Below are positions 1,631-36,367 of a stretch of DNA of 38,314 nt, in pieces (position 1 is the first letter of the stretch; the number at the start of each line of letters is the position of its first letter). The translations under genes and the position numbers were made by a program. Below the pieces are notes generated by a model. That model was not told where the DNA came from, ran no database searches, and worked only from the letters and a program-made list of their open reading frames with translations. The stretch covers positions 1-38,314 of the forward strand of contig JAHCMJ010000007.1 in NCBI GenBank assembly GCA_019192485.1, in the 5' to 3' direction. This DNA comes from Cyclobacteriaceae bacterium HetDA_MAG_MS6 (GTDB lineage: Bacteria > Bacteroidota > Bacteroidia > Cytophagales > Cyclobacteriaceae).

Positions 1631-1828
1631 ATGAATCGAATCAAAGCTGTCCTCGAAGAGAAGAGAATCAAGCAAACATGGCTAGCTGAGAAGCTCGACA
1701 AGAGCTATAACATGGTTAATTCTTATGTTCAGAATAGGAGACAACCTAGCTTAGATGACCTTGTTAAAATCGCAGAGATCCTAGACGTTGATGTAAGAGA
1801 CCTAATAGAACCTACAAAAGAGAAATGA
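1631..1828 (+). CDS. Small XRE/Cro-type helix-turn-helix regulator
   Basis: The 65-residue protein is essentially one HTH_3 domain. The recognition-helix region is around residues 17-40 (WLAEKLDKSYNMVNSYVQNR), and the sequence ends in the typical tail with VRDLIEPT. Its stop overlaps the start of hsdM in an ATGA junction (1825-1828), so it is translationally coupled to the methyltransferase. By position and family it is probably a controller of the type I restriction-modification operon, a common arrangement in Bacteroidota. Whether it represses or activates is an inference. Confidence 0.88.
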   Translation: MNRIKAVLEEKRIKQTWLAEKLDKSYNMVNSYVQNRRQPSLDDLVKIAEILDVDVRDLIEPTKEK

Positions 1829-3960
1829 CAGACGAGCAGTTAAAGAAGTTAGAAGACGATTTGTGGGAAGCTGCGAATAACTTAAGAGCAAATTCAGATC
1901 TTAAGTCAACTGAATATGCTTCACCTGTATTGGGATTGATATTCTTGAAGTATGCGGATAACAAATACAAAGCTGTAGAAGAGGAGATTAAGAAAGAATT
2001 AGACGCACAGAAATCTTCCAGAAGGAAGAGACAGGAACATGAAATAGCCATTGAGAAATGTGGTTTCTACCTGCCATACAATGCACGCTTTGATTACCTC
2101 CTTCATTTGCCAGAAGAAAAGAGCATGGCTGAAGCACTGAAAACCGCCATGACAGGTATAGAAGAACATCAAGAAGAGAAATTCAAAGAAGTTCTTCCGA
2201 AAGATGATTTTGCCCGATTAGAAAAAAGCAATCGTACCATATTGCCAGAACTATTAAAAGCATTCTCAGATATACCGGAGGATGCCGGAGGGGACGTATT
2301 CGGTAAAATCTATGAGTACTTTCTAGGAAAATTTGCTTTGTCAGAAGGTCAAAAAGGTGGAGAGTTCTTTACACCACCTTCGGTCGTAAAATTCATTGTT
2401 GAAGTTATTGAGCCTTATCATGGGAGAGTTTACGATCCAGCTTGTGGTTCTGGAGGTATGTTCGTTCAGTCTGCCGAATTCATAAGGAAACGAAGACATG
2501 GTAAAGCCGAAGATATCTATGTGGAAGGGCAGGAGAAGACAGGTGAAACGGTCAATCTAGCAAAGATGAACCTCATGGTCAATGGACTTAGAGGAGAGAT
2601 CAAACAAGCTAACTCCTATGCGGAAGATCCATTCAAGAGTTATGGCAAGTTCGACTATGTGATGGCCAATCCACCTTTCAACGTGAAGACAGTAAAGGAA
2701 AGCACAGTCAAGAATGATAAGCGCTTTTACCAATACGGACTTCCAAAGAACAAAGGGAAAAAGGAAGATAAAATCACGGATGCCAACTACCTCTGGATCA
2801 GCCTTTTTGCGACTTCATTAAAAGAAGATGGTCGGGCTGGTTTCGTAATCGCTAATTCTGCTTCAGATGCTCGGAATTCTGAATACGACATACGCAAGAA
2901 GATTGTAGACTCAGGAATGGTGGATATGATGGTGACCATGCCTTCAAATATGTTCTATACGGTCACTTTGCCAGCCACACTTTGGTTTTTTGATAAAGGC
3001 AAAATCAAGACAGATCGAAAGGACAAGATTCTGTTCCTGGATGCAAGAAATGTATTCCGCCAGATCGATCGAGCACATAGAGAATGGACAGAAGAGCAGT
3101 TTCTGAATTTAGCCACCATCATCCGTTTGCACAGAGGTGAAGAAGAACGATTTACCGAACTGATTAGTAGCTACTTATCAAAAGCTGATGAATACATCAG
3201 TCCAAGTAAATCAGCCGGTGATAAAGTGGTGGAAACACTTCAATCGTCTATTGCCAACTTGAAAAAATATGTGGATGATTTGACGGAGAAATTCTCCAAA
3301 GCTCAAATCAAAAAGATGAATGAATACCATTGGCTAGAGCGATGGAATGCGCTTAATACATTGGAGATAATGCCACAAGTTGATCTTAATGAACTTGAGA
3401 AAGTGTTTGAACAAGTCAAGCAAACTTCTACGAATGTAGATCAACACCAATCAGCTCGAAAGTTATCTGAAGTGGTGAATTACCATTCGGAATGGATCGC
3501 ATTGATCAATAATGCAAAGAAGAGCCTAGAAGAATTACTCAAATGGGCCGATAAGAACCTAAAAGTTAAGAATACCAAAAACTGGTCTGATCTCATGCTC
3601 GGAAGAGCCATTAAGAACATTGAAGAACAGGTTAAAGCTTACACCAGAGAAAAGGATTTACTGGCCTACTTCTTTGAAAACATCCAATGGATGCAAAAGC
3701 AGTTTCCTGACGGAAAATATGCAGATGTAGTCGGTCTATGCAAAGTAGCTGACAGATCTGAATATGTAGATGAACAGGACTATTCATTAAATCCCGGGAG
3801 ATACGTTGGAGTAGAATTAGAGGAACATTTTATTTCAGCTGAAGAGTTTAAATCTGACATATCTGCTCTTAACTCTGATCTTCACTCTTTAAATGAAAGT
3901 GCCCATGAATTGGAACAGCTGATATCTTCCAACCTCTCAATTCTTATTGATGATGATTGA
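1825..3960 (+). CDS. hsdM: Type I restriction-modification methyltransferase subunit HsdM
   Basis: This is the N6-adenine DNA methyltransferase of a type I system, which works with HsdS in M2S and R2M2S complexes. An HsdM_N helical domain occupies about residues 5-140. The SAM-binding motif I, DPACGSGG, is at residues 204-211, and the catalytic NPPF is at 282-285. At 711 residues it is clearly longer than the classic roughly 500-residue enzymes. Residues from about 440 to 640 form an extra helical, coiled-coil-rich region before a short tail (LNPGRYVG). The start is fixed by the ATGA overlap with the XRE gene. Its 3' end overlaps hsdS by 14 bases. No inactivating change is visible. Confidence 0.96.
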   Translation: MTDEQLKKLEDDLWEAANNLRANSDLKSTEYASPVLGLIFLKYADNKYKAVEEEIKKELDAQKSSRRKRQEHEIAIEKCGFYLPYNARFDYLLHLPEEKSMAEALKTAMTGIEEHQEEKFKEVLPKDDFARLEKSNRTILPELLKAFSDIPEDAGGDVFGKIYEYFLGKFALSEGQKGGEFFTPPSVVKFIVEVIEPYHGRVYDPACGSGGMFVQSAEFIRKRRHGKAEDIYVEGQEKTGETVNLAKMNLMVNGLRGEIKQANSYAEDPFKSYGKFDYVMANPPFNVKTVKESTVKNDKRFYQYGLPKNKGKKEDKITDANYLWISLFATSLKEDGRAGFVIANSASDARNSEYDIRKKIVDSGMVDMMVTMPSNMFYTVTLPATLWFFDKGKIKTDRKDKILFLDARNVFRQIDRAHREWTEEQFLNLATIIRLHRGEEERFTELISSYLSKADEYISPSKSAGDKVVETLQSSIANLKKYVDDLTEKFSKAQIKKMNEYHWLERWNALNTLEIMPQVDLNELEKVFEQVKQTSTNVDQHQSARKLSEVVNYHSEWIALINNAKKSLEELLKWADKNLKVKNTKNWSDLMLGRAIKNIEEQVKAYTREKDLLAYFFENIQWMQKQFPDGKYADVVGLCKVADRSEYVDEQDYSLNPGRYVGVELEEHFISAEEFKSDISALNSDLHSLNESAHELEQLISSNLSILIDDD

Positions 3961-5248
3961 GATTGTCACTAAAAGGATATCAGAACTTGGAGAGGTGATA
4001 ACTGGAAACACTCCTCCAACCACTAACAGAAGCCTGTATGGGGGCAAATACCCATTAATAATGCCAACTGACATTGCAATTGGCAGCAAGTATATAGGCG
4101 AAACGGAAGAAACTTTATCTGAAGAAGGATATGAAAAATATCAAAAGTCGTTGCTGCCAGCAAACACACCCTGTGTAGTCACAATTGGTACTATTGGAAA
4201 GAAAATCTGTCTCAGCAAACAAGATTGTTTCACTAATCAGGCGATTAATGCAGTCAATGTCTATAGAGATAAGTACGATCCAGTATTTATTTTCTATTTG
4301 TTGAAATTCAACCTTCCCCAGGTGAAAAACCTTTCTAGCGGAACTGCTTCTGGAAGAGAAAACGTCAGTAAATCTTCATTCAGTAATATAAAAGTTAGGC
4401 TTCCTGAAGACTTGAAAATCCAACAAAAGATCGCCTCTATTCTTTCTGCCTATGATGAGCTTATCGAAAACAACAATAAGCGCATTGCCATACTTGAAAA
4501 CATGGCTGAGGCAATCTACAAAGAGTGGTTTGTGCGGTTGTGGTTTCCTGGATATGAAGAGGTGGAAGTAGTTGATGGTGTGCCGGAGGGGTGGGATAAT
4601 CCACGAGTTTCCGAAATATGCAGTTTGATAAATAGAGGAATAGCACCTAATTACCTTGATGAAGGAAAATCAATTGTTATCAATCAAAGATGTATTAGAG
4701 ATAATAAAATAGACTTAAATCTGAGCCGAAGACAGTCTAAAGCAATTCCTCCTGAAAAATTGGTTCAATATGGAGACATTTTGATTAATTCAACAGGGGA
4801 AGGCACATTAGGACGTGCCGCACAATTCTATCAAAATACTAGCAGAAGAAGTTCTCCTATTTCAGTTGATACTCATGTAACTATTGTCAGAGCTATAGAG
4901 AATCACCATTTAGAAGTGCTTGGTTCTTACATCATGTCAAGTCAAGAACTGATTGAAAGATTGGCACTTGGGTCTACAGGACAAACTGAATTGAGTAGGT
5001 CAGATATTGGAAGACTGAGAGTACTTATTCCAAATGACGATTTGGCTAAAAGGTTCTCTAAGTTGATAAGACCAATGAGAGAACAAATAGTTCTTCTTTC
5101 AAATAAGAATGAAGTCATTCAAAAGACTAGAGACTTATTGTTGCCTCGTTTGATAAGTGGAAAGCTGTCAGTGGAACATCTCCTAGAAGAGGCAAGAGAT
5201 GAACTAGTGATGGCTGATGAATCCATTCCCCCTTATCAAGGGGGCTAG
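3947..5248 (+). CDS. hsdS: Type I restriction-modification specificity subunit HsdS
   Basis: The 433-residue protein provides DNA target recognition. A first target-recognition domain spans about residues 5-155 and starts with the typical ISELGEVITGNTPP. A central conserved helix is at about 160-205 (QQKIASILSAYDELIENN, then EAIYKEWFV). A second target-recognition domain is at about 215-375, and a terminal helix ends in LLPRLISGKLSVE. Three consecutive ATGs (3947, 3950, 3953) overlap the end of hsdM, so the exact start is uncertain by two residues. The last eight residues (SIPPYQGG) are encoded by the palindromic repeat at 5225-5254, so the original C terminus was probably altered by the insertion next to it. 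Confidence 0.95.
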   Translation: MMMIEIVTKRISELGEVITGNTPPTTNRSLYGGKYPLIMPTDIAIGSKYIGETEETLSEEGYEKYQKSLLPANTPCVVTIGTIGKKICLSKQDCFTNQAINAVNVYRDKYDPVFIFYLLKFNLPQVKNLSSGTASGRENVSKSSFSNIKVRLPEDLKIQQKIASILSAYDELIENNNKRIAILENMAEAIYKEWFVRLWFPGYEEVEVVDGVPEGWDNPRVSEICSLINRGIAPNYLDEGKSIVINQRCIRDNKIDLNLSRRQSKAIPPEKLVQYGDILINSTGEGTLGRAAQFYQNTSRRSSPISVDTHVTIVRAIENHHLEVLGSYIMSSQELIERLALGSTGQTELSRSDIGRLRVLIPNDDLAKRFSKLIRPMREQIVLLSNKNEVIQKTRDLLLPRLISGKLSVEHLLEEARDELVMADESIPPYQGG

Positions 5249-5254
5249 GGGGAT
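5225..5254 (+). repeat. Left C/G palindromic repeat of the DUF559 cassette
   Basis: A 30-base unit is built as ATTCCCCC, TTATC, AAGGGGG, CTAG, GGGGAT. It contains an inner CCCCCTT/AAGGGGG hairpin plus a second G5 block. Its reverse complement matches the right copy at 5644-5672 at nearly every position. The hsdS stop codon (5246-5248) lies inside it. Confidence 0.85.
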
Positions 5255-5267
5255 AAAAAAGAGGAAA

Positions 5268-5675
5268 ATGAAAAACAACTATCACTACAACAAAAACCTG
5301 AAAACATTCGCTCGTGATCTACGGAATAACTCTACCCAAGCCGAAATCCGCCTTTGGAGTGAATTGCTACGAGCTGGCACCTTAAGAGGCTATAAATTCC
5401 TGCGTCAGCGACCTATTGGAAACTACATCGCTGATTTTATGTGCAAAAAGCTCAAATTAATTATAGAAGTTGACGGTTATTCTCATAATTTTAAAAACAA
5501 TGAAGACAAAGTAAGGGACAAAGAATTGTTGAAGCTAGGCTTTCAAACGGTAAGGTTCTCAGACAAGGAAGTAATGAATGATCTGCCGAATGTGCAGCGA
5601 ACACTGGAAATGTTTATTGATGAATTTGAGGAGAAAAATAATCATCCCCCTAACCCCCTTCAAAGGGGGAATTAG
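5268..5675 (+). CDS. DUF559 endonuclease-domain protein (Vsr/PD-(D/E)xK-like)
   Basis: The 135-residue protein is of the DUF559 family, related to very-short-patch-repair endonucleases. Visible family marks are AEIRLW (E26), a strand with IADF (D56), and LIIEVDGYSH with E67 and D69 as likely metal ligands. The ATG at 5268 is preferred because an AGAGGA ribosome-binding site lies just before it. An upstream in-frame ATG at 5217 would translate the repeat. The C-terminal HPPNPLQRGN is encoded by the right palindrome. It lies between hsdS and hsdR but is not a known subunit of type I enzymes. It is more likely the enzyme of its own repeat-bounded cassette. Confidence 0.88.
   Translation: MKNNYHYNKNLKTFARDLRNNSTQAEIRLWSELLRAGTLRGYKFLRQRPIGNYIADFMCKKLKLIIEVDGYSHNFKNNEDKVRDKELLKLGFQTVRFSDKEVMNDLPNVQRTLEMFIDEFEEKNNHPPNPLQRGN
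5644..5672 (-). repeat. Right C/G palindromic repeat of the DUF559 cassette
   Basis: A 29-base unit is the inverse of the left copy: ATCCCCC, TAA, CCCCCTT, CAAA, GGGGGAAT. It differs from the reverse complement of 5225-5254 only around the small loop and at one base of the TAG/TAA spacer. It encodes the DUF559 C terminus, and the stop codon follows immediately. Confidence 0.85.
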
Positions 5676-5680
5676 AAGAT

Positions 5681-8600
5681 ATGGCTAATTATCTATCAGA
5701 GGACAACATAGAGAAAGCAGACATTGATTTATTCTTAAATCAATTACACTACGATGAGCACATTGATGCCTATGGAAAGAAACTGATAGATCGTGACAGT
5801 CTCAAAGAAGTCGTTTTTAAAGCCAGACTTGAGAGGGCCTTAAAAAAGCTGAATCCTAGTCTTACGGATCAAGCAATTGAACTAGCCAAAGAGGAACTGG
5901 TAAAATCAAGATCATCAATGACGCCAGTAATGGCCAATAAGGAGATTCACGAATTTCTAAAAGATGGCGTTCCGATAACCTATACCAATCATGAAGGAAA
6001 AGAAGAGCCAATCAATGTTAAATTAATTGATTACCAAAAACCTTCAAGCAACGAATTTTTGGTGGTATCTCAGCTGAGCATTGAGTATCAAAGACTGGAG
6101 GGAATTACGAGAAGACCAGACCTTCTCATCTATGTAAATGGTTTGCCTCTTGTTTTCATTGAGCTAAAGAATGCATCAGAGAATGTAAAACAGGGATATG
6201 ATGATAATCTAGCAAACTACAAAGAGGACATACCGCAATTGTTCGATTATAACTTGTTGGTATGTATTTCTAACGGGATCAAAACCCGAATAGGATCTTT
6301 CAATGCAGATTGGGAACATTTCTTCCCTTGGGTCAGAAGCAAAGATGCATCTGTTGACAAAACACAATTGACGCTAAAAGAAATTGAGTCACAGTCCGAG
6401 GTAGAAAAGAGAAAAATCAGCTTACAATATTTCTGTGAAGGTCTTTTGAACAAGGAAAATCTGGTGGATTATCTGGAGAACTTTGTGTTGTTCAGCAATA
6501 ACAAAGCAAAGATCCTCGCTAAGAACCATCAGTTCATCGGTGTAAACAATGCCGTCAGATTATTCAGGGAGAATCAAAAAGGAGGGAAGCAAGGCGTTTT
6601 CTGGCATACCCAAGGTTCCGGGAAGTCCTATTCGATGATCTTCTATTCGCGGAAAATCAATCGCAAGATTGCAGGTAACTTCTCTTTTTTGGTAATCACA
6701 GACCGGACTGATTTAGATGGCCAGATCTATAGGAACTTCCTTGAAACGGAAACGATTCAAGTCAATAACGAGCAAAAAGACAATTATTACAAACCGAAGG
6801 ATCGTGACCAGCTCATTGGATACTTAAAGACCAATAGGAAATATATCTTTACCCTTATTCAAAAGTTTGGACTGCCAAAAGGACAGCAATTTAAACCTGT
6901 TTCAGACCGTGACGACTGGATAGTGATGATTGACGAAGCACACCGCTCTCAATACAAAGGACTCGCAGACAACCTTAGAATTGCGCTCAAAAAAGCCCAA
7001 TTTATTGCCTTTACCGGAACACCTTTAATTAGAGGTGGAATTACCGAAAAGTGGTTCGGAGACTATGTCTCAGAGTACAATTTTGCTCAAGCAATCGAAG
7101 ATGGAGCAACCGTCCCGCTTTACTACAAGAAGTCAGTTCCAACAATGGTAAATGTTGAGGAAGATCTGGTAGAAAAGGCAGCAGAGATACTAGCAGAAGA
7201 AAACATCTCTGAAGAGGATCAAGAAAAGCTGGATAAGGAGTACTCAACTTTAGTACAGGTTGTCAAACGAGACGATCGGTTAGAGGAAGTCGCTAAACAC
7301 ATCGTGAGCCATTTTCCTTATCGACTTGATGTCGTTGATGAAAATCTGGACCGTAAGCCCATGAAAGCAATGGTAATTGCCATTGACAAATTTACGGCAG
7401 TCAAAATGTATGATAAGGTCGAGTATCATATCAAGGAATACATTAAAGAGCTTAAGCGAGAATTAACAAAGACATCTGATCCAGTCGAGAAAGAGAAATA
7501 TGCGAATGCCATTCACTTCATGAAAGAAACAGAAATGGCGGTTGTAGTTAGTTCCGAAAAAGGGGAGAAGGAGAAGTTTCAAAAGGCCGGACTAGACATT
7601 GGAAAACATAGGAAGAGATTGGATATCTCTGATGATGACGGTCGAAATGTTGAGGACTATTTTAAAGATGCCAATGACAAACTGAGAATCGTATTTGTCA
7701 CAGCAATGTGGATGACTGGTTTTGATGCACCTGCAGTGTCCACGCTTTATCTAGATAAGCCACTTCAAAACCATTCAATCATGCAAACCATTGCTCGAGC
7801 TAACAGGGTTTTTGATGCTAAAAAGAATGGTCTTGTTGTAGACTACTTTGGTGTTTTCCGTAACCTCAAGAAGGCTTTGGCCATGTACGCTGAAGGAAGT
7901 GGAAGCAATGAGGAAGATGAAGAAGATTTACCGCTAAACGAGTTTGAAGAGCTTATAGGTATTCTCGAAGAAGCTATATCCGAAGGAAAGGAATTCTGTA
8001 TTCAACATAATGTCAATTTGCAGGAGATCATTGACCTGGGTGAAAAGGGATTCAAAGAAGTGGAGCTGTTCGAAACTTTTGCAAATAGGTTGTTAGTCAA
8101 TGATGATGTGAAGAAGAAATACAGCCTTTACACCAATTCAATAGTATCACTTTACGACTCCTGTAAACCGGATATTTATGATTATCCGGAGATCAAGAAA
8201 ATCAAAGAAGTTTTTGAGTATTTGAAGAATGTCATTGACAGAAACAGTGATAATCGGGAGAGAATTGAAAAAGCAAAACGAAGAATAGACGAGTTGCTTG
8301 ATGAGTCAATTCTAGCCGAAGGATCAATTGCTAATGACCCGCCTGGCGAATACATAATCAAAGCTCATGCACAAATTGATCTAAGCAAATTGGATTTCGC
8401 ATTGCTACGTGAGAAATTCAAAATCAACGATCATAAGAACATTGCAATAACAGATTTACGTGGGTTTTTGGAAATTAAACTCCAACAAATGATCCGTAAG
8501 AATAAGACCAGAACAGGATTTCTTGAGCGATTCCAACAAATAATAGACGAGTACAATGCAGGGAGTAATTCTGTGGAAGAAACTCATGAGAGACTTGTCA

Positions 8601-8965
8601 AATTGATGGAAGATCTCAGCGAGGAAGAGCAACGGAATGTAAAAGAAAACCTGACCGATGAGGAACTTGAAATATTCGATTTATTGAAGAAAGAAAAGCT
8701 CACCAAGGAGGAGCTAAAAAGAGTAAAACTAGCCGCAAAACATCTTCTTGAGCGCTTGAATGAAGAAAAATCAAGCCTGTTTGTAATTGATTGGTACAAA
8801 TCTAGAACTACACGTTTGAAGGTTAAAAACCGAATTGAGCAAGTTCTTGACAAAGAACTACCTGAGACGTATGAAGAAGACACCTTCAACGAGAAGAGCG
8901 ATCTTGTATATCGTCATATTCATTCACTAGCAGAACAAGGTAGAGCTTGGGCTGAAGCTTCTTAA
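5681..8965 (+). CDS. hsdR: Type I restriction enzyme subunit HsdR
   Basis: This 1094-residue protein is the ATP-dependent translocase and endonuclease of the type I system. The N-terminal nuclease core has a PD-(D/E)xK pattern with D147 in RRPDLLIY and E161-L-K163 in FIELKN. The helicase part has Walker A QGSGKS with K315, DEAH at 418-421, FTGTPL, MWMTGFDAPA and IARANRVF. A helical C-terminal region follows, as expected for contacts with the methyltransferase core. The ATG lies 5 bases after the DUF559 stop. All key motifs are present, so the system could be active. Confidence 0.97.
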   Translation: MANYLSEDNIEKADIDLFLNQLHYDEHIDAYGKKLIDRDSLKEVVFKARLERALKKLNPSLTDQAIELAKEELVKSRSSMTPVMANKEIHEFLKDGVPITYTNHEGKEEPINVKLIDYQKPSSNEFLVVSQLSIEYQRLEGITRRPDLLIYVNGLPLVFIELKNASENVKQGYDDNLANYKEDIPQLFDYNLLVCISNGIKTRIGSFNADWEHFFPWVRSKDASVDKTQLTLKEIESQSEVEKRKISLQYFCEGLLNKENLVDYLENFVLFSNNKAKILAKNHQFIGVNNAVRLFRENQKGGKQGVFWHTQGSGKSYSMIFYSRKINRKIAGNFSFLVITDRTDLDGQIYRNFLETETIQVNNEQKDNYYKPKDRDQLIGYLKTNRKYIFTLIQKFGLPKGQQFKPVSDRDDWIVMIDEAHRSQYKGLADNLRIALKKAQFIAFTGTPLIRGGITEKWFGDYVSEYNFAQAIEDGATVPLYYKKSVPTMVNVEEDLVEKAAEILAEENISEEDQEKLDKEYSTLVQVVKRDDRLEEVAKHIVSHFPYRLDVVDENLDRKPMKAMVIAIDKFTAVKMYDKVEYHIKEYIKELKRELTKTSDPVEKEKYANAIHFMKETEMAVVVSSEKGEKEKFQKAGLDIGKHRKRLDISDDDGRNVEDYFKDANDKLRIVFVTAMWMTGFDAPAVSTLYLDKPLQNHSIMQTIARANRVFDAKKNGLVVDYFGVFRNLKKALAMYAEGSGSNEEDEEDLPLNEFEELIGILEEAISEGKEFCIQHNVNLQEIIDLGEKGFKEVELFETFANRLLVNDDVKKKYSLYTNSIVSLYDSCKPDIYDYPEIKKIKEVFEYLKNVIDRNSDNRERIEKAKRRIDELLDESILAEGSIANDPPGEYIIKAHAQIDLSKLDFALLREKFKINDHKNIAITDLRGFLEIKLQQMIRKNKTRTGFLERFQQIIDEYNAGSNSVEETHERLVKLMEDLSEEEQRNVKENLTDEELEIFDLLKKEKLTKEELKRVKLAAKHLLERLNEEKSSLFVIDWYKSRTTRLKVKNRIEQVLDKELPETYEEDTFNEKSDLVYRHIHSLAEQGRAWAEAS

Positions 8966-19117: not shown

Positions 19118-20341
19118 ATGAACCTATTAAAGAAAAAGAAAAAGCTTCCTGTTACGGTACTTAGTGGTTTTTTAGGAGCTGGCAAGACCACCTTACTTAA
19201 TCATGTGCTCAACAATCGAGAAGGACTCAAAGTCGCGGTGATTGTGAATGACATGAGTGAAGTCAACATCGATGAAAAGCTCATTGCTAATGGGGCCAAA
19301 CTCTCCAGAACGGAGGAAAAACTGGTTGAGATGAGTAACGGCTGTATCTGTTGTACTCTCCGAGAGGATCTGATGATTGAAGTAGAGCGGTTAGCCAAAA
19401 TGAAAAAGTTTGATTACCTGCTTATCGAAAGCACGGGCATCTCTGAGCCGATTCCAGTGGCCCAAACTTTTAGTTTCGCCACGGGAGATGAGCTGTATGA
19501 CCTCACACAATTCAGTCAATTGGATACTATGGTCACGGTGGTGGACGCGTTCAATTTCTTCAAGGATTTTGGGAGTGCCGATACCATTCTTAGTAGGGAA
19601 ATGACCGATGATCTTGAAGATGACCGCTCTATCGTCAATCTACTAACCGATCAAGTTGAGTTTGCTAATGTGATCATTCTCAATAAATCTGATCTTGTCA
19701 CAGAAAGTCAGTTAGGCGTTTTGGAAAAGATACTTTATAAGCTAAATCCTACTGCTAAAATTATTCGCACCTCACACAGCAAAATTGATCCGAAAGAGAT
19801 ACTCAATACGGGATTGTTTGATTATGAAGTAGCTGAACAATCAGCAGGATGGCAAAAGGAATTGGAATTAGCGCAAAAAGGAATCGGCCACAGTCCGGAG
19901 ACCGAAGAGTATGGGATCAGCTCCTTCGTATACCAAAATGCGAGGCCTTTCCATCCACAAAGATTTTTGGAGTATGTAAGCCAAAATTTTCCGTCTACCA
20001 TTATCAGAAGTAAAGGGATATTCTGGATCGCATCTCGTCCTGATAAGGCGGTGCTCTGGAGTCAAGCTGGAGGTTCGCTGAAAGCCGAAATATACGGTAG
20101 ATGGTGGGCCAGCGTGCCCATGAAGCAACGTGCTATGAGTGAATCTTATCTTGAGAATCAAAGAGAGATTCAAAAGAAATGGAACCCAAAATGGGGCGAT
20201 CGAATGAATGAGCTAGTACTCATCGGGCAGGACATGGATAAGAAAAAGATCATCGCTGATCTGGACAATTGCCTGTTGACAGACATCGAGGTTGTTGGTA
20301 TGGAAGCCGGTAATGGGTTTCAAGATGATTGGCCAATATGA
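19118..20341 (+). CDS. COG0523 (CobW-like) GTPase, probable zinc metallochaperone
   Basis: The 407-residue G3E GTPase has P-loop GFLGAGKT (17-24), the metal-site motif GCICC (75-79), switch motif ESTGISEP (104-111) and NKSD (189-192). A CobW C-terminal domain occupies about 290-390. Proteins of this family deliver metal ions to client enzymes, and one branch is linked to zinc limitation through Zur. The acidic insert at about 160-172 and the length near 400 residues fit the longer zinc-linked forms. The next gene's ATG (20338) overlaps its stop codon. The operon holds a second, shorter paralogue. Confidence 0.9.
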
Positions 20342-21003
20342 AGCTACTTACATCCATTCCATTTGTAAAACCAAAACCTAAAATTCCACGACAGGTCATC
20401 AGCACCTCGTGGCTGGATCGATGGGAAATACTAAAAGATGATGTCAACTTGTTTTGCTGGAAGCGAGTGTTTGAGCCCAGTATTCTGGCTTACTTAAAAG
20501 ACTTGCTAGGCCATAATCCTAAGTCGATTCGGCTATCTGTCAACCAAGCAAATATTCCTAATCAAATAGAGAGAGTCAGCGCTCACTGGGACCAGTACTC
20601 GACAGTTGATGGTCAGCCTTTTTGGAAAGATATCTCGTATATTGTTAGCGATTTTCTTGATTTTTCAGATAGTGGCATTGGTACCATGCATTTGAGGATT
20701 ATAGAAGACAATGCTTGCACCAAATTTCATACAGATGGATATCCGCTAAGGTTGTTTACGACCTATACGGGAAAAGGTACAGAATGGCTTCCGGAAAAGG
20801 CAGTCAACCGGACGGCTCTCGGCACTGCAAATGAGGAGATTGTGAAGGATCAGAGTCAGATTCACCAAATGGTGGCGGGTGAAGTAGGTATTTTAAAAGG
20901 TGAGTTGCCCAAGAGGAGAAAATCGATAAAGGGCATTGTCCATCGATCACCAGAGATTAGTCAAACTAGTGAGAAGCGTATCATTTTACGAGTAGATTTA
21001 TGA
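20338..21003 (+). CDS. DUF1826 family protein (copy 1)
   Basis: The 221-residue protein is placed in DUF1826 by [29 protein letters not shown] and VHRSP. The ATG at 20338 is chosen because it overlaps the GTPase stop (ATGA). A TTG 9 bases upstream is possible. H131, D133, H202 and, 12 residues on, R214 are spaced like the HxD...H...R signature of 2-oxoglutarate/Fe(II) dioxygenases, and the second copy in the window keeps them. I infer, but cannot show, such a fold. It sits between two COG0523 GTPases and overlaps the second by 4 bases. Confidence 0.88.
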
Positions 21004-21977
21004 AGTTAAAACCTGTCCATATTATCACCGGATTTTTAGGAGCTGGAAAGACCACTTTTCTCAATCATTTTATCAAGGAACGACTTCCGGAAAGAATTTT
21101 TGTTATAGAAAATGAATGTGGCTCTACCAATGTGGATGGTGGGCTTGTCATGGCCGGTGTGGAAGAGGTGGTGGAGCTAAGCGCTGGCTGTCTGTGCTGC
21201 TCACTGGCAGATGGTTTACTAGATGTGCTCGCAGAAGCACACAAGCAAAGAGATCAATACGATCGAATGATTATTGAAACGACCGGTATAGCCGATCCAT
21301 CATCTATTGTTCAGGTATTTTTGGAAAATCCGGCTGTGGAGAAAGCGTACGAACTACAGCAAGTGATCTGCCTGGTGGATGCCGACCAGGTAGAGGAGTG
21401 GTTGAAAGAAGCGGAAGAGGCACTTCGCCAAGTTGCTGTAGCTGATGTGTTGCTGATCAATAAGATCGATACTGTTTCTCAAGGTAAGCTGACAAGGGTA
21501 CTTTCGGTACTCAACGGGATCAATCCACAGGCTAAAGTCTTCACAGGTGAAAATGGAAACTTTCCTATTTCGGAAATCATGAGCATTGGAACAGTAAAGC
21601 CAGAAACAGTCGAGCCCTCCGTAACCAAATCCGAAGGTCATCAACATGAGCACGGAGAAAATAACAGCCATAAGATCACAACTTTTACCCTTACTTTCCC
21701 TAGTCCATTAGACCTCAACCACCTACAGATGGACCTGAACCGCATCGTGCATCTATATCGTCATCAGGTTTATCGGGTAAAAGGGTTTATTGCTATACCA
21801 AACTATCCAAATCGTGTCATTCTGCAGTCCGCTCGAAGTACTTTCATTGCTACAGACGGTACCCCCTGGGAAGATGAAGAAAATCGGGATGGCAAGCTGG
21901 TTTTTATCGGTCGTGGATTGAAAAAGGAGGCTTTTGAAAGAATGTTTAATCGGCATTTGGTGGAGTACGAGACCTAA
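21000..21977 (+). CDS. COG0523 (CobW-like) GTPase with His-rich linker
   Basis: The 325-residue G3E GTPase has P-loop GFLGAGKT (11-18), metal motif CLCC (64-67), ETTGIADP (93-100) and NKID (154-157). A His-rich linker, EGHQHEHGENNSH (212-224), is the classic metal-holding loop of zinc-linked members, and a CobW_C domain follows from about 228. It overlaps the DUF1826 gene by 4 bases. Together with the longer GTPase it probably forms a pair with different client proteins. Confidence 0.9.
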   Translation: MKLKPVHIITGFLGAGKTTFLNHFIKERLPERIFVIENECGSTNVDGGLVMAGVEEVVELSAGCLCCSLADGLLDVLAEAHKQRDQYDRMIIETTGIADPSSIVQVFLENPAVEKAYELQQVICLVDADQVEEWLKEAEEALRQVAVADVLLINKIDTVSQGKLTRVLSVLNGINPQAKVFTGENGNFPISEIMSIGTVKPETVEPSVTKSEGHQHEHGENNSHKITTFTLTFPSPLDLNHLQMDLNRIVHLYRHQVYRVKGFIAIPNYPNRVILQSARSTFIATDGTPWEDEENRDGKLVFIGRGLKKEAFERMFNRHLVEYET

Positions 21978-28767: not shown

Positions 28768-31035
28768 ATGGAAAAGCTTTTGTCTGCAACAAGAAAGGAA
28801 CTGGACATTGAACTAAATGTAATTGAGGGGGAGATTCCCCGTACAATTCACGGTTTCATGTTCATTAATTCTGCAGTCGGGAGCATTAATTCTGGCGGAC
28901 TACCATATGAAAGAGGTAATGATGAATTTAATACGCCTATTTTCAACGGAGATGGTTATGTGGTAAAGTTGGATTTTACCGAAAAAGGTAAAATCAAGCT
29001 CAAATCGCGGCTCATGAAGACCCCAAGTTATTACGCTGACGAGGCCCTTCGGGAGAATGGCCCTGCCCGTGATAATAAGAAATATGAGGGGTGGGAGTTC
29101 AAAAATAATGGAATGGCCAGGATGAGCAAGGTCCTTGGTCAGCGCAACCAGGCTAATGTCGCTGTGGTCCCAGTCAAATTTCGTGAAAGCGAGCCTCTGA
29201 GAATGTTGGCAACCTATGAAGCAGGAAGACCCTGGGAGATTAACTCAGAAACACTAGATGTTATTGCCCCTGCTGGTAAGTCAGAAGATTATCTTTCGCT
29301 TGTTCCAAGTTGGTTTTTAAGATACCCATTTCCGGCGGTGTTATCCAGCTCACATCCGGTGTATGACTTTGAAACCAAGGAAATGTTTACTGTCAGTTTT
29401 ATTCAAGGTATGGATGTGATGTTGAGTCTTAAAAAGCTGAGATTCAAGGCTGTAGAAAACCCAGTAGAAACAGAAAGAAAGCTCGTAAACGCTATTGATA
29501 AGGCGCTAGAATTAGAAGGAGAGGAGCGTAGAAACCACTTCAAATCGTGGTTGCTAAATGCACATCCAAAGGACGACCAGCACTTTAGTGAAAGCACAAA
29601 AATCGGTTTTTTAGAGGGGCTCAAGGATAAATTTGTTCAGGATGATGAAGTACGTCTTTTGAGATGGGATGGTACACCGGATCTAAAAAAATGGCGAGTG
29701 AGATGTGATGGAAAGGATATCAGTATTACCCAAAATATGCACCAAATGGGTATTACGGAGGATTACATCATTCTTTCAAACAGTTCATTGAAGATCAACC
29801 TGAGTTTGATGTTCAATTATCTATGGCCACAGTATCCACACCTTGAAGAGAAACTTAGAAAGTTGCTATCCAGTCCCATGATACCACAGTCAGAGTTGTA
29901 CTTTATTAAGCGCAAGGATCTCAAAACAGGTGATGATGTCGTTTCTGCTGTTAAGGCAATTATTCCTCTGGAAACGGTACATTTCACACCCAATTATCTT
30001 AATCCAAACAACCGGATCACCGTTATGACGGCGCATAATACGGCTAACTGTCCGGCAGAATGGATACGGTACTTTGATAAGAGGCTGGTAGATGGAGAGC
30101 CTGTTGACCCTGATCATTTGAGCTACCTCTCTACGGGGCAAATGGATATTGGCAGAATGGGTAGAATGGTATTTGATGCAGAAACAGGGGAGTTGCTGGA
30201 AGATCAATCCGATGTACTTTTTAAAAAGGGAAACATAGAAGAACCCGAAAAGATCGGCCCACATACTTGGGGTGTAGGACTCTACTCATTTCGTGGCTAT
30301 GAGGAGTTGATGCCACGCGTACGCGAGATTAAAAATATTTACTGGCAGATCTTCGGATTGGATCGCAATTTCCTGACGGAATTTGTGTACGAACTATATC
30401 GAGATTACCCTAACAGAGTAGCTTCCGTGGAAGAGATAGAAAGACTCACTAAAGAAGGCGTGCCCATAGGCCTGGCCAGGGTGGATCATAGTGAGCAGGA
30501 AATGGATATTAAGGACTTTTATCTTTTTGAAGAAGATCATCACATGCGCTCTATTCAGTTCATTCCCAATGAAGTTCGTAATCCTGCAGTGACTGAAGAT
30601 ATGGATGGGTATATTCTATGTACCATAAAAGTACCTGAAGAGAAGCAGGGGCATTACACGAGTCAGGTTTGGTTATGGGATGCTACTCACTTGGCAAAAG
30701 GTCCGGTGTGCAAGCTTGCACATGACCAATTATGTTTTGCGTATACTTTTCATAGCGTATGGACCTCCGAAGCTGAATTTACCAACCCGAAGGATCAGAT
30801 TGATATCATCGATGATATTGATGATATGGTGAAGTTGATCATCAATTCCAATAAGCAGGTTAAAGTAGAGGCGTTTATGGATGATTATGTATATCCTCAC
30901 TTTGCCAATCAAAAGAACAAGATTGCTGACAGTGATCCTGCTGATTATTTAGGAAGGATTCACAAGTGGACCGCTAATTTGTTCCGAAAGGAGAAATATC
31001 CGTATGAGACAAAGTTTAAAGAGAAGAAAAAGTAA
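28768..31035 (+). CDS. Carotenoid oxygenase family protein (RPE65/CCD-like)
   Basis: The 755-residue protein is similar to carotenoid cleavage dioxygenases, nonheme Fe(II) enzymes with four His ligands on a seven-bladed propeller. The N terminus has VIEGEIPRTIHGFMFIN and FNGDGYVVKLDF. The His-bearing blocks visible are THNTANCPAEW or a nearby His, MHQMGITEDYIIL (H325), a C-terminal FHSVWTSE and others. It is longer than the typical 450-550 residues, with inserts around residues 90-270 and 470-560. Substrate cannot be assigned: apocarotenoids, stilbenes or lignin-type aromatics are all possible. No signal peptide is seen. Confidence 0.85.
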   Translation: MEKLLSATRKELDIELNVIEGEIPRTIHGFMFINSAVGSINSGGLPYERGNDEFNTPIFNGDGYVVKLDFTEKGKIKLKSRLMKTPSYYADEALRENGPARDNKKYEGWEFKNNGMARMSKVLGQRNQANVAVVPVKFRESEPLRMLATYEAGRPWEINSETLDVIAPAGKSEDYLSLVPSWFLRYPFPAVLSSSHPVYDFETKEMFTVSFIQGMDVMLSLKKLRFKAVENPVETERKLVNAIDKALELEGEERRNHFKSWLLNAHPKDDQHFSESTKIGFLEGLKDKFVQDDEVRLLRWDGTPDLKKWRVRCDGKDISITQNMHQMGITEDYIILSNSSLKINLSLMFNYLWPQYPHLEEKLRKLLSSPMIPQSELYFIKRKDLKTGDDVVSAVKAIIPLETVHFTPNYLNPNNRITVMTAHNTANCPAEWIRYFDKRLVDGEPVDPDHLSYLSTGQMDIGRMGRMVFDAETGELLEDQSDVLFKKGNIEEPEKIGPHTWGVGLYSFRGYEELMPRVREIKNIYWQIFGLDRNFLTEFVYELYRDYPNRVASVEEIERLTKEGVPIGLARVDHSEQEMDIKDFYLFEEDHHMRSIQFIPNEVRNPAVTEDMDGYILCTIKVPEEKQGHYTSQVWLWDATHLAKGPVCKLAHDQLCFAYTFHSVWTSEAEFTNPKDQIDIIDDIDDMVKLIINSNKQVKVEAFMDDYVYPHFANQKNKIADSDPADYLGRIHKWTANLFRKEKYPYETKFKEKKK

Positions 31036-32435: not shown

Positions 32436-32463
32436 TGTAACACCATTTGATCTTATGCATCCA
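32436..32463 (+). promoter_or_regulatory. Putative ECF promoter of the sigma factor gene
   Basis: TGTAACACC, 11 bases, TGCATCCA. The same two blocks at exactly the same spacing stand before the SRPBCC operon (33411-33438). The TAACA-type -35 is typical of ECF sigma factors. The second block ends 20 bases before the sigma start codon. Autoregulation is inferred. Confidence 0.65.
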
Positions 32464-32483
32464 ATGAGTAAAAGATATATGAT

Positions 32484-33353
32484 ATGCATAACCCATTGAC
32501 AGAAAGATATTCAGAAGAAGAAAACATAGCGTTGGTTCGTAAGTCCTTGAGTGGAGATCGTAAGGCACTGGATCAGCTTGTCCGATTACACCAGCCATTC
32601 ATCTATAATGTCGCTTGGAAAATGGCCTGGGAACCTGATGATGCCCTGGATCTGACTCAAGAAGTCCTCATTAAGGTAATCACCAAGCTCTCACAGTTCA
32701 ACTTTGAGAGTCAATTTAGAACCTGGCTATATCGCATCGTGGTGAATGAGTTTTTGCAAGCCAAAAGGAGAAAGGGAGAAAAGCAATTCTCTACTTTAGA
32801 AGATCATGGAAATAGGCTGGATGCAGTTCCTGGGGAGGATTTAACCGTGGAAGAAGAAATAGAACTCAAAGAACTGACAGAAGAGGTTCAGTTCAGGTGT
32901 CTTTCAGGAATGCTGATGTGCCTTACCAGAGAACAGCGGTTGATTTTTATTTTGGGAGATACCTTTGGAATTGATCACAACATTGGAGGAGAAATTTTTA
33001 ATGTTTCCAAAGAGAACTTCAGAGTAAAACTTCATCGGGCAAGAAAGGAACTCTGCAATTTTATGGATAATAAGTGTAGCTTGATCAACCCGAAGAACCC
33101 TTGCCGGTGTGCCAAAAAGAGTAAGTTCTTTTATAAACAAGGTCTTTTGTCCGAAGATAAGAAAACCTTCAATGTGGGGTACAAAACAAAAATGCTGGAT
33201 TATGCTTCAGAAAATTATAAGGCATCCAGTGAGGCTGTGTATGAAAAACACTCTGACCTATTTCGCAATCATCCGGCCAAAGACCAATTTGATGCAGACA
33301 CAGTAATTGAAGAGATCTTGAATGATGAGAATCTGATGCATTTTTTTCAATAA
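32484..33353 (+). CDS. ECF-type sigma-70 factor with Cys-rich C-terminal tail
   Basis: The 289-residue protein has sigma region 2 at about 25-95 (YNVAWKMAWEPDDALDLTQE and FESQFRTWLYRIVVNEFLQ) and region 4 at about 135-193. A roughly 95-residue extension follows that ordinary ECF factors lack. It opens with C191, C198, C207 and C209 (CSLINPKNPCRC), a CxC-type metal-like cluster. No anti-sigma gene lies nearby, so the tail may be the built-in sensor, as in CorE-type metal-responsive ECF factors. The promoter-like signal before it is repeated before the SRPBCC operon. Confidence 0.88.
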   Translation: MHNPLTERYSEEENIALVRKSLSGDRKALDQLVRLHQPFIYNVAWKMAWEPDDALDLTQEVLIKVITKLSQFNFESQFRTWLYRIVVNEFLQAKRRKGEKQFSTLEDHGNRLDAVPGEDLTVEEEIELKELTEEVQFRCLSGMLMCLTREQRLIFILGDTFGIDHNIGGEIFNVSKENFRVKLHRARKELCNFMDNKCSLINPKNPCRCAKKSKFFYKQGLLSEDKKTFNVGYKTKMLDYASENYKASSEAVYEKHSDLFRNHPAKDQFDADTVIEEILNDENLMHFFQ

Positions 33354-33375
33354 AAAAGCTGACACTTCGATTAAT

Positions 33376-33401
33376 AAAGCATGCATTCGCATGCTTTTTT
33401 T
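33376..33401 (+). terminator. Rho-independent terminator of the sigma gene
   Basis: A 9-bp stem AAAGCATGC / GCATGCTTT with loop ATTC (33376-33397) is followed by a T run to 33401. It lies 22 bases after the sigma stop codon and separates that gene from the SRPBCC operon, which therefore needs its own promoter. Confidence 0.88.
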
Positions 33402-33410
33402 ATTTGCTAC

Positions 33411-33438
33411 TGTAACACCTCAAACATCACTGTATCTA
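33411..33438 (+). promoter_or_regulatory. Putative ECF promoter of the SRPBCC operon
   Basis: TGTAACACC, 11 bases, TGTATCTA. It matches the signal before the sigma gene in all nine -35-block positions and six of eight -10-block positions at equal spacing. It lies right after the terminator and 25 bases before the ATG at 33464. Confidence 0.68.
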
Positions 33439-33463
33439 ACTCTCAAATCAACAAAATACAGTG

Positions 33464-33964
33464 ATGAACATAAAAAAAGAAATCATAGTGAACAAACCTG
33501 CCAAAGAAGTTTGGGAGGTCTTGGGCGATCAGTTTCCAGATGCCTACAAATGGGCTCGAGGGCTGGATCATTCACAAGGTCATGGAGACCCTTTTGATGG
33601 AACCCCATGTAACAACAGAACCTGTGAGGTTCCAGGATTTGGAAAAATCCAAGAGGCAATCAGGAAGTTTGATTCGAACAAACACATTCTTGCGTATGAG
33701 GTCACCCACGGGTTTCCCGGCTTTATTGCTTCAGCGGTAAATACCTGGAAACTTACACCCCAAGGTTTCAATACCAAGGTGGAAATGAACATGGAGATGC
33801 AAACCAAGGGAATAAAAGGTGCTATCATGGGACCCATGATGAAAATGAATCTTAGCAAGACTGTGGCTGGGGTGCTATCCGATCTTAAAACCTACGTGGA
33901 GACAGGTGAACCTAGTGAGCAAAAAGCAAAGGAAATAGCCAAGGCTTCCATGAAAGCAGCATAG
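33464..33964 (+). CDS. SRPBCC (START-fold) protein 1, cytoplasmic
   Basis: The 166-residue protein is of the SRPBCC superfamily, whose helix-grip fold encloses a hydrophobic ligand pocket. Marks are the opening IKKEIIVNKPAKEVWEVLGD and the long C-terminal helix (about 120-150, KTVAGVLSDLKTYVETGE). The ATG at 33464 is preferred over a GTG one codon earlier. No signal peptide is present, unlike the three paralogues downstream. C47 and C52 lie in PCNNRTCE. It is first in a cluster under the ECF-type promoter. The ligand is unknown. Confidence 0.85.
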   Translation: MNIKKEIIVNKPAKEVWEVLGDQFPDAYKWARGLDHSQGHGDPFDGTPCNNRTCEVPGFGKIQEAIRKFDSNKHILAYEVTHGFPGFIASAVNTWKLTPQGFNTKVEMNMEMQTKGIKGAIMGPMMKMNLSKTVAGVLSDLKTYVETGEPSEQKAKEIAKASMKAA

Positions 33965-33992
33965 TTCAGTTAATAAGAAATAAGTAAAAGTT

Positions 33993-34595
33993 ATGAAAAC
34001 AAAAATGATAAGTGCAGTGCTACTGCTGATTGGGACAGTTGGTATAGCCCAGAAGATGGACAAAAAATATAAGTCTATAGAGGTGGAGATAGAAATCAAC
34101 GCTCCGGCAGAAAAAGTATGGAATACGATGGTAAAGGACTATGGAGCTATATCTAATTGGTCACCATACATCTATGCAGCCAGCTGTGAAAATGGATCAC
34201 TTCAAGGTGTGGAAGGTGCTGAAAGAAAATGCGATCTCAACGAGAACGGGAGCCGATGGGTTCATGAGCGTATTGCCTCTATTGATGATAGGAAGATGGA
34301 AATGAGGAACATCATACTTGATGGGGCAAAATTTCCTCTTGACAAGGAAAATACACAGGCGTACTACAGGGTGAAGGACAATGGAAATGGAACTTCTAAA
34401 GCTTCCTACTTGATGGAATTTAGGGGAAAGCCTGCTATCATGACTGGCATGATGAAAGGGAGCTTTAAGAAAAGTCTTGAAAACAATCTAAAAGGTCTGA
34501 AGCACTATGTGGAAACGGGTGAGGAGGTGACTCCTGCGAATGACCGGATCAAGGGCATTAAAGATTTGTACAGGGTAAATCATATATCAAAATGA
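33993..34595 (+). CDS. SRPBCC (START-fold) protein 2, exported
   Basis: The 200-residue protein has a signal peptide (about 1-19, MISAVLLLIGTVGIAQ). An SRPBCC domain follows (SIEVEIEINAPAEKVWNTMV, then SYLMEFRGKP and a C-terminal helix with NNLKGLKHYVETGEEV). The sequence between strands, GVEGAERKCDLNENGS, is shared in form with SRPBCC protein 4 (VVGAERNCEVFPEG). It starts 28 bases after gene 1 and overlaps the AhpD-like gene by 4 bases (ATGA), so these two products are made together. A periplasmic carrier or enzyme for a lipid or aromatic is possible. Confidence 0.85.
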   Translation: MKTKMISAVLLLIGTVGIAQKMDKKYKSIEVEIEINAPAEKVWNTMVKDYGAISNWSPYIYAASCENGSLQGVEGAERKCDLNENGSRWVHERIASIDDRKMEMRNIILDGAKFPLDKENTQAYYRVKDNGNGTSKASYLMEFRGKPAIMTGMMKGSFKKSLENNLKGLKHYVETGEEVTPANDRIKGIKDLYRVNHISK

Positions 34596-35176
34596 AAGAA
34601 ACACTAAGAGGATTTAAAATGGATGAGGTGGGAAATGAACCAACGGAAGTCCAGGAAGTATTTGATTGGTACAGGGAGAATTTTGGTTTTGTACCCAATC
34701 TTTCGAAAGTACTAAGTGCATCTCCAGCAGCATTGCGGTCATACTGGCTCACACAATTAGAGTTGTCCAAACACGGCTTGCTGACACCAGCAGAGCACAA
34801 CATCATTCAAATGTCCATTGCAGTGGAAAACAAATGCAAATACTGCACTTCAGGACATCAAATGGCGGGGGTGCAGTTTTTTGGGTCGGAAGAAGAGGAT
34901 CTTATAGCGATCAGGAATGAAGGAACTATTCCTTCTTCAAAATTTGATGCGCTTCGATCATTCACACTTGAAGTGTATAGGAACAAAGGTCGTATTTCCG
35001 ATCAGGTCTTGGAAAGCTTTTTAGCGGAAGGTTATACAAAACCACAGGCTGTAGAGGTCATCACCAATATCGGCGTAAAAGTCATGTCAAACCTAACCAA
35101 TCAACTGACGATGACAGAAGTTGAGGAGCCATTCGCTCCACTTTCTGAAGGGCTTTTCGAAGATGTATTGAACTAA
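34592..35176 (+). CDS. AhpD-like/carboxymuconolactone decarboxylase-family protein
   Basis: The 194-residue protein has the AhpD core EHNIIQMSIAVENKCKYC, with C82, C85 and H89 (CKYCTSGHQ). These form the redox-active CxxC and the proton-relay His of peroxidase-type members. The N-terminal WYRENFGFVPNLSKVLSASP is typical of the peroxidase-related branch. It has no signal peptide. It overlaps SRPBCC gene 2 by 4 bases. In an ECF-controlled cluster, a thiol peroxidase or reductant role in an oxidative or electrophile stress response is likely. True decarboxylase activity is unlikely because of the CxxC. Confidence 0.88.
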   Translation: MKETLRGFKMDEVGNEPTEVQEVFDWYRENFGFVPNLSKVLSASPAALRSYWLTQLELSKHGLLTPAEHNIIQMSIAVENKCKYCTSGHQMAGVQFFGSEEEDLIAIRNEGTIPSSKFDALRSFTLEVYRNKGRISDQVLESFLAEGYTKPQAVEVITNIGVKVMSNLTNQLTMTEVEEPFAPLSEGLFEDVLN

Positions 35177-35202
35177 TAATTGAACAATAAATAATAAACA
35201 GA

Positions 35203-35718
35203 ATGAAAATTGGAAATTTAATCTTACTGCTTGTTGCCGTGATGGCAACCGGAAGCATTAGCACAACTTATGCACAGAATTCTGATGCAAAAAAAACCTA
35301 TACAAAGGTAGTTGACGCTTCAGCGGATAATGTATGGTCAGTATTGAGAAAAATGGATCAGATTGACAAATACTCGCAGAATGTTGCACGTGTTGAATGG
35401 TCCGGAAATATGGGTGTCGGTGGGTCCAGAAAGTGTTTTGCCCCTGATGGTCAGGGTTATTTCAAAGAAAATATAGTGGCTTATGATGATACCAATAGAA
35501 CCTTCAGCTACTCTGTCGTAGAGGGTGTTCCGGTAAAGGGAATGGTTAACTCATGGAAAGTTGTGGACCTTGGATATATGAAATCAATGGTGGTATGGAC
35601 TACAAACTATGATGAGTTTATAGAAAACCCTCAAATGACATTCGACCAGTTCATGGGTTTCATCGACTCCTCGCTCAATGAGTTTGTTGGAAATGTGGTG
35701 GCTGAGGCCAAAATGTGA
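35203..35718 (+). CDS. SRPBCC (START-fold) protein 3, exported
   Basis: The 171-residue protein has a signal peptide (about 1-25, ending TTYAQ). An SRPBCC domain follows, with YTKVVDASADNVWSVLRKMD, GVGGSRKCFAPDGQGY and a closing helix (QFMGFIDSSLNEFVGNVV). It starts 26 bases after the AhpD-like gene. A hairpin with a T-rich tract follows its stop (35730-35765), so transcription may partly end here. Ligand unknown. Confidence 0.84.
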   Translation: MKIGNLILLLVAVMATGSISTTYAQNSDAKKTYTKVVDASADNVWSVLRKMDQIDKYSQNVARVEWSGNMGVGGSRKCFAPDGQGYFKENIVAYDDTNRTFSYSVVEGVPVKGMVNSWKVVDLGYMKSMVVWTTNYDEFIENPQMTFDQFMGFIDSSLNEFVGNVVAEAKM

Positions 35719-35729
35719 GGTAGTTTTTA

Positions 35730-35765
35730 AAGTGTGGTGGTAGTGGCTGCCACACTTATTTTATT
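35730..35765 (+). terminator. Probable terminator or attenuator within the SRPBCC cluster
   Basis: The stem AAGTGTGG (35730-35737) / CCACACTT (35750-35757) with a 12-base loop is followed by ATTTTATT. It lies 11 bases after the third SRPBCC gene and 20 bases before the fourth. It could lower expression of the fourth gene or end the operon. Confidence 0.65.
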
Positions 35766-35785
35766 AATGCATTCAAAGATTATCT

Positions 35786-36367
35786 ATGAAAAAAAGAATA
35801 TTACTTGGATCTATCGTCACGCTTGCCTTGCTGGCTATCATTGGGTTCATTGCTCAGTACAGATCGAATCAATCATTCGTTCATATAGAAGGTGAAATAC
35901 TTATACCAAGACCCGTAGCGGACGTTTGGACTTATATAGCTACGGATTTTGACAAGATTCAAGACTATTCAGCAGGAGTAAAGAAGTCATATTATACTAA
36001 TGGTCACTATCAGGCAGTAGTAGGGGCTGAGCGAAATTGTGAGGTCTTTCCGGAAGGCTATATTACCGAGCAAATAACCGAATTCGATGTAAATAATCGA
36101 ATGCTAGCGTTCGAGGTTAAAGCTGGTGATTTGCCCATTGATATTGCTGTTGGAACCTGGGAGCTATATGAAGTTGAGGGAGGAACAAGAGTTGTTGAGA
36201 AAGTTGATTTCAGAATGAAATACTTCTTTATGAATGGACCGGCAGAAAAGAATTTTCAGGAGGGTATTAATCAGAATCTTGCCGGATTAAAGAATCTGGT
36301 TCTAAATGGGACGTCTGCCACACCTGATAACATATCTTCTATCATGTCCGAGTATTGGGAACAATAA
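35786..36367 (+). CDS. SRPBCC (START-fold) protein 4, membrane-anchored or exported
   Basis: The 193-residue protein has an N-terminal hydrophobic helix (about 4-24, ILLGSIVTLALLAIIGFIAQ) without a clear cleavage site, so it is probably a membrane anchor. The SRPBCC domain has VHIEGEILIPRPVADVWTYI, VVGAERNCEVFPEGYI and a terminal helix (NFQEGINQNLAGLKNLVLNG). It is most similar in layout to SRPBCC protein 2. It lies after a terminator-like hairpin, and no ECF-type signal is visible in its leader. Confidence 0.84.
   Translation: MKKRILLGSIVTLALLAIIGFIAQYRSNQSFVHIEGEILIPRPVADVWTYIATDFDKIQDYSAGVKKSYYTNGHYQAVVGAERNCEVFPEGYITEQITEFDVNNRMLAFEVKAGDLPIDIAVGTWELYEVEGGTRVVEKVDFRMKYFFMNGPAEKNFQEGINQNLAGLKNLVLNGTSATPDNISSIMSEYWEQ

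Follow-up and report, generated by a model that had tools for sequence, protein, structure and literature searches.

A stretch of 38,314 nucleotides (hereafter the window) from the draft genome of Cyclobacteriaceae bacterium HetDA_MAG_MS6 (genome G000; 4.69 Mb in 460 contigs, 94% complete; window contig G000:C417) contains a gene for an extracytoplasmic function (ECF) sigma factor followed by an operon of four SRPBCC genes and one CMD/AhpD-like gene. It is proposed here that the locus is probably an autoregulated single-locus stress module, in which an ECF sigma factor would activate its own gene, carry an internal thiolate or metal switch, and have a regulon restricted to SRPBCC proteins. Anti-sigma factors govern most ECF sigma factors, and few built-in sensors have been worked out. 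The system is also kept in marine Flavobacteriaceae (Polaribacter, Psychroserpens, Aquimarina, and Winogradskyella), cultured strains among them; because its promoter, target genes, and probable sensor residues can each be read from the sequence and are conserved, both the mechanism and the role of Bacteroidota SRPBCC proteins are directly testable. The arrangement recurs across the phylum and appears to point to an undescribed stress-sensing system; the literature searched gave no description of the sigma-SRPBCC pairing.

The sigma gene and the promoters read around it are the following:

32436..32464, + strand: sigma-gene promoter, TGTAACACC-N11-TGCATCCAA, with a -35-like TGTAAC box containing the AAC of ECF promoters and a -10-like CATCYAA; kept in orthologs
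32484..33353, + strand: ECF sigma factor of 289 aa, with sigma2 at residues 32-98, sigma4 at 138-190, and a cysteine tail from about 191; C139, C146, C198, C207, and C209
33376..33397, + strand: intrinsic terminator in the gap between sigma gene and operon, a 9-bp stem and a T-run, with a folding z of -2.55
33411..33439, + strand: operon promoter, TGTAACACC-N11-TGTATCTAA, read from pattern matches and ortholog comparison

An earlier reading of the window, made from its letters only (the sequence-only reading), had proposed a shared bipartite signal 20-25 bases before the start codons of both units and a terminator separating them, and all three elements were recovered. Matches to TGTAACACC-N11-TGYATCYA are found at 32436-32463 and 33411-33438, while the expectation for the window is 0.23 matches when up to 3 mismatches are allowed; the two sites end 20 nt before the ATG of the sigma gene (32484) and 25 nt before that of the first SRPBCC gene, SR1 (33464), and the hairpin described above lies between the units. 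The genome-wide statistics come from pattern searches, in which the two window sites were the sole exact matches to TGTAACN14TGYATCYA in the whole draft; two strays had one mismatch, and the reversed control matched twice.

The motif as read in the window, without fitting, was also scanned in the other sigma-homolog loci, where sense matches were counted immediately ahead of the sigma gene or within the 700 bases that follow it. With up to one mismatch, 13 sense matches were present in 9 other sigma loci, with none in antisense and 1 elsewhere (1.9 Mb of strand-positions); with up to two mismatches, there were 26 sense matches in 16 loci, none in antisense, and 8 elsewhere. The absence of the motif from orthologous loci, which the sequence-only reading had named as evidence against itself, was thus not observed. 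Sites before both units, with hairpins between them, were found in L045, L046, L083, L084, and L086-L088 (orthologs from Saprospiraceae, Cytophagales, and Flavobacteriaceae), and the hairpins at the terminator position look similar by eye in L045, L083, L084, and L086-L089. These conserved sites before both units provide comparative support for control by the sigma factor of its own gene and of the SRPBCC operon, as initially suggested. Five of the loci have a third promoter copy within the SRPBCC operon, before its second gene (L045:7164-7192, L083:7514-7542, L086:7505-7533, L087:7508-7536, and L088:7511-7539), and other sigma clades have in the same place a variant consisting of [GT]TCACAC and then TCTAA (20 sense, 1 antisense, and 7 elsewhere).

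For a refined consensus, TGTAACAC-N13-GYATCHAA, a search through 196 family genomes gave 11 matches, against 0 for a reversed control; as two of the tested genomes had contributed to the consensus, this search shows exclusiveness and not discovery. Seven of the 11 matches are at the sigma-SRPBCC locus, in the only three sampled genomes with a close ortholog (two in G000, three in G070, and two in G131), and the other 193 genomes have four single stray matches in total. Because the consensus is matched only at the locus in the three ortholog-bearing genomes, the regulon appears confined to the sigma locus, and a global regulon was rejected for the lack of promoter copies outside of the locus in these genomes.

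The window sigma factor has the sigma2 and sigma4 domains, without sigma3, that define the ECF type, as read from Pfam (Sigma70_r2, 5e-15; Sigma70_r4_2, 3.8e-5 and 23.7 bits, just below the cut-off of 25.7), TIGR02937 (8e-22, above the cut-off), and Foldseek, and also the autoregulated AAC-type -35 promoter of this type, in the form of the TGTAACAC element before its gene, kept in orthologs. In its AlphaFold2 (AF2) model (predicted local distance difference test, pLDDT, 84.6), the top PDB match is SigW bound to the anti-sigma RsiW, with a template modelling (TM) score of 0.79 to 0.83 by target length, and the Foldseek matches also include SigE and CnrH bound to CnrY. The tail is about 95 residues long, within the range of about 80 to 100 residues that most family members keep past sigma4, and the Pfam scan gave no match in it beyond sigma4, neither SnoaL nor TPR.

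Homologs were gathered by the sigma sequence alone, and cysteines were counted in 105 of them, of which 103 extend to the tail. C146 is present in 105 of 105 and C139 in 102 of 105, and C198, C207, and C209 are present in all 103 that reach the tail; because one search pattern contained C198, the conservation of this residue is biased in one homolog set, while the other four are unbiased. The conserved cysteines span homologs of Bacteroidota, Proteobacteria, Chloroflexi, and Firmicutes; the layout is found in Firmicutes too, where the Acetobacterium homologs have all five. The sequence-only reading had listed C191, C198, C207, and C209 and suggested direct sensing by the tail. A cysteine-based sensor is supported in principle and the last three residues of that list are conserved; however, most homologs have Y, F, H, R, or Q at position 191, which rules out C191 as a sensor residue, and the conserved linker cysteines C139 and C146 had been overlooked, so that the candidate set becomes C139/C146/C198/C207/C209. 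Since the conserved cysteines are in the sigma2-sigma4 linker and in the tail, the site connects these two regions and may be a thiolate or metal site that positions sigma2 and sigma4.

In the proposed mechanism, basal sigma factor would be held in check, or ready, by the thiolate site C139/C146 plus C198/C207/C209, most likely with a bound metal, e.g., zinc. Thiol modification or a change of metal would free the sigma domains for RNA polymerase, and the sigma factor would then transcribe both units, its own gene and the SRPBCC genes, from the TGTAACAC-N13-GYATCHAA promoters, a step with comparative support, resulting in positive feedback. The SRPBCC proteins in the cytoplasm, periplasm, and membrane would bind or convert a hydrophobic small molecule, in line with their fold, and the likeliest signal may perhaps be a thiol-reactive lipophilic compound, e.g., a quinone-type electrophile.

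Myxococcus xanthus shows a similar plan in the ECF sigma factors CorE/CorE2 (formerly ECF44, now close to ECF238), which lack an anti-sigma factor and require metal for activity (PMC3107203, PMC8999054). Like these, the window sigma factor has no anti-sigma gene alongside, appears to control adjacent genes, and follows the general plan of cysteines in the linker between sigma2 and sigma4 and immediately past sigma4, which favors the alternative of direct sensing of zinc, cadmium, or copper by the cysteine site, with the operon answering metal stress. However, four cysteines are invariant in the CorE tail, C181-x2-C184-x7-C192-x-C194, and the CorE linker has a CXC motif (PMC3107203), whereas the window protein has C198-x8-C207-x-C209 instead of CxxC-x7-CxC and C139-x6-C146 instead of CXC. 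As both CorE-specific cysteine patterns fail, membership is ruled out and the window sigma factor should not be filed as CorE-like. The targets also differ, being copper-handling genes for CorE and genes for hydrophobic-pocket SRPBCC proteins here, and the 25 commonest families of 145 operon-mates include none for metal efflux or metal chaperones. That metal-efflux families are not prominent among the neighbors speaks against a pure CorE-like metal response; a direct metal sensor is considered unlikely, although it keeps some weight, and a thiol-reactive small molecule is weakly preferred over a metal as the signal.

The comparison of neighborhoods across Bacteroidota indicates that the sigma-SRPBCC pairing is conserved across this phylum, while the AhpD gene, which the sequence-only reading had placed in the same system, is not. 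In 27 of 101 loci, the sigma gene has an SRPBCC gene beside it; 23 of these loci belong to one supported clade of 34 rows, and this adjacency is clustered on the sigma tree, with 9 changes where shuffling gives a mean of 24. Members of the same family group have sigma loci identical to those in named records of Imperialibacter, Ohtaekwangia, and Cyclobacteriaceae. Among the predicted operon-mates (n = 145), Polyketide_cyc2 occurs 41 times, SnoaL_2 13, short-chain dehydrogenases 6, and ABM 5, with DinB also present, whereas among genes more than 4 kb away (n = 138) the numbers are at most 1 for Polyketide_cyc2, 3 for SnoaL_2, and 2 for short-chain dehydrogenases; the SRPBCC enrichment among operon-mates has a Fisher p of ~1e-12, uncorrected for relatedness.

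Anti-sigma families are absent from the 25 commonest operon-mate families of about 100 loci, so the lack of an anti-sigma neighbor already reported for the window extends to the family-wide tally. Unlinked regulators are known for other ECF sigma factors, which leaves room for control by an unlinked anti-sigma factor, or by transcription alone, with the cysteines as a structural zinc site, for which a strictly invariant site would also be expected. The absence of anti-sigma families from the tally and the extension that most family members retain after sigma4 speak against this alternative, which is judged rather unlikely.

The operon (gene order SR1, SR2, the CMD/AhpD-like gene, SR3, and SR4) comprises the following features:

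33464..33964, + strand: SR1, cytoplasmic SRPBCC protein of 166 aa with R52-x-C54; AF2 model pLDDT 95.8, no signal peptide by eye
33993..34595, + strand: SR2, SRPBCC protein with a signal peptide (by eye) and a GAERKC motif
34592..35176, + strand: CMD/AhpD-like protein with CKYC, overlapping SR2 by 4 nt; outside the conserved core
35203..35718, + strand: SR3, SRPBCC protein with a signal peptide (by eye) and a GSRKC motif
35730..35757, + strand: strong terminator-like hairpin with a 12-bp stem, in the gap between SR3 and SR4
35786..36367, + strand: SR4, SRPBCC protein with an N-terminal membrane anchor (by eye) and a GAERNC motif

SR1-SR4 all match Polyketide_cyc2 (PF10604; E < 1e-14, 57 to 60 bits against a cut-off of 27.4), which, with the localization by eye, agrees with the set of one cytoplasmic, two exported, and one anchored START-fold proteins first described. 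The model of SR1 has a helix-grip (Bet v 1/START) fold whose nearest structures include Bet v 1, the PYL receptors, ZhuI, and TTHA0849, and the Polyketide_cyc2/SRPBCC proteins XoxI, YPO0625, MSMEG_0129, ZhuI, and TTHA0849 have fold and Pfam family in common with SR1-SR4. An R-x-C pair is present in 12 of 12 sigma-linked SRPBCC proteins checked and in 2 of 18 unlinked ones from the same genome sample, several of the latter being partially aligned; the best-aligned relatives in the PDB lack the R-x-C cysteine that the sigma-linked members carry. The genome G131, one of those with a close sigma ortholog, also encodes two R-x-C SRPBCC proteins away from the sigma gene (L180 and L188; G131:C220 and G131:C81). 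The hairpin between SR3 and SR4 may cause attenuation and lower SR4 expression.

As SRPBCC proteins are the commonest co-regulated partner, are tightly co-regulated from the same promoter, and share their fold with the PYL receptors, an SRPBCC protein could itself be a PYL-like ligand receptor binding the sigma factor in trans, with feedback, leaving the cysteine tail only a structural role. This is very unlikely, however, because several sigma loci (L050, L053) are paired solely with a signal-peptide SRPBCC protein, out of reach of a cytoplasmic sigma factor, which weakens SRPBCC as an obligatory trans-regulator, and other clades have SnoaL or ABM partners instead.

The CMD/AhpD-like protein has CKYC and falls under the cut-offs of both of its families (PF02627, 3e-4, 21.2 bits against 23; TIGR01926, 5e-14, 52 bits against 81.8). 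An essential role of its gene in the system is not supported: because only the window operon has AhpD among close orthologs, it is a local addition and was rejected as a core component. The CMD gene of L089 is outside the operon, beside a different gene set.

On the signal, the same genome encodes a second sigma factor of the family (L035, G000:C144:6577-7437), with the promoter GTCACACC-N12-TCGTCTAA, whose sole other site in the genome (L165, G000:C259:4617-4644) precedes an operon encoding a flavodoxin-fold flavin mononucleotide (FMN) reductase (azoreductase-like), a Pyr_redox_2 protein, and an alpha-acetolactate decarboxylase-like protein, with AraC and NmrA genes adjoining. FMN azoreductases work as quinone reductases in other bacteria. 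This link and the SnoaL, ABM, DinB, and short-chain dehydrogenase neighbors point, weakly for the window locus, to a reactive small molecule as the signal. A broader and more tentative proposal is that of a widespread, uncharacterized one-component sigma family in which a thiolate switch between linker and tail would take the place of the anti-sigma factor and whose members would read a reactive small molecule and induce only local ligand-binding proteins (SRPBCC, SnoaL, ABM) that trap, convert, or carry it, with the R-x-C cysteine of the SRPBCC proteins perhaps taking part in the same chemistry.

Several points weigh against a self-activating switch with a locus-confined regulon. The proposal relies on sequence comparison and predicted models; the cysteine site could be purely structural, and an anti-sigma factor is possibly encoded elsewhere in the genome. 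The last 80 residues past the cysteine motif are weakly conserved and modeled with lower confidence, and the azoreductase evidence is indirect for the window locus because it belongs to a different sigma factor of the family. The refined consensus, partly drawn from G070 and G131, is not independent for these genomes, while the scan with up to one or two mismatches is; and the draft, at 94% completeness, may lack further targets.

Among the described ECF groups, ECF288 and ECF287 have been named for a cysteine-rich C-terminus, with an ECF288 example from Blautia producta (PMC8999054). The window sigma family has such an extension as well, the groups being compared by description only, and no targets or promoters of ECF288/ECF287 were found in the literature searched; the family may belong to a group named in that work, with ECF288, ECF240, or ECF248 as candidates. 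Similarly to the window sigma factor, ECF41/ECF56 (SigJ, SigG1) have a C-terminal regulatory extension; theirs has a SnoaL domain fused to the sigma factor, and the neighbors in the window sigma family include SnoaL, CMD, and short-chain dehydrogenase (SDR) proteins. The window tail, however, is short and cysteine-based, with no SnoaL domain. Membership in ECF41/ECF56 is ruled out by the lack of a Pfam match past sigma4, and in ECF42 by its TPR domain of ~200 residues, against a tail of ~95 residues without a TPR match.

Other observations concern the neighbors. A homolog of carotenoid oxygenase (RPE65) of 755 aa is encoded upstream of the sigma gene (window 28768-31035) and is not kept beside orthologs, and genes for BLUF-type light sensors, then a PhzF-like gene (by eye), come after the sigma-SRPBCC genes in L040 (8494-9439) and L055 (4763-5188). 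A light or singlet-oxygen response, which these neighbors suggested, was rejected because they are not kept across the relatives and nothing came from a literature search. In another sigma clade (L071, L072, L073, and L074), the sigma gene is followed by genes for a SnoaL protein and an alkyltransferase-like DNA_binding_1 protein, suggesting a link to alkylation. Elsewhere in the window, positions 1825-8965 resemble by eye a type I restriction-modification system (HsdM, HsdS, HsdR), and 19118-20341 and 21000-21977 encode two CobW/COG0523-like GTPases (by eye, with a GAGKT motif), which may be metal chaperones.

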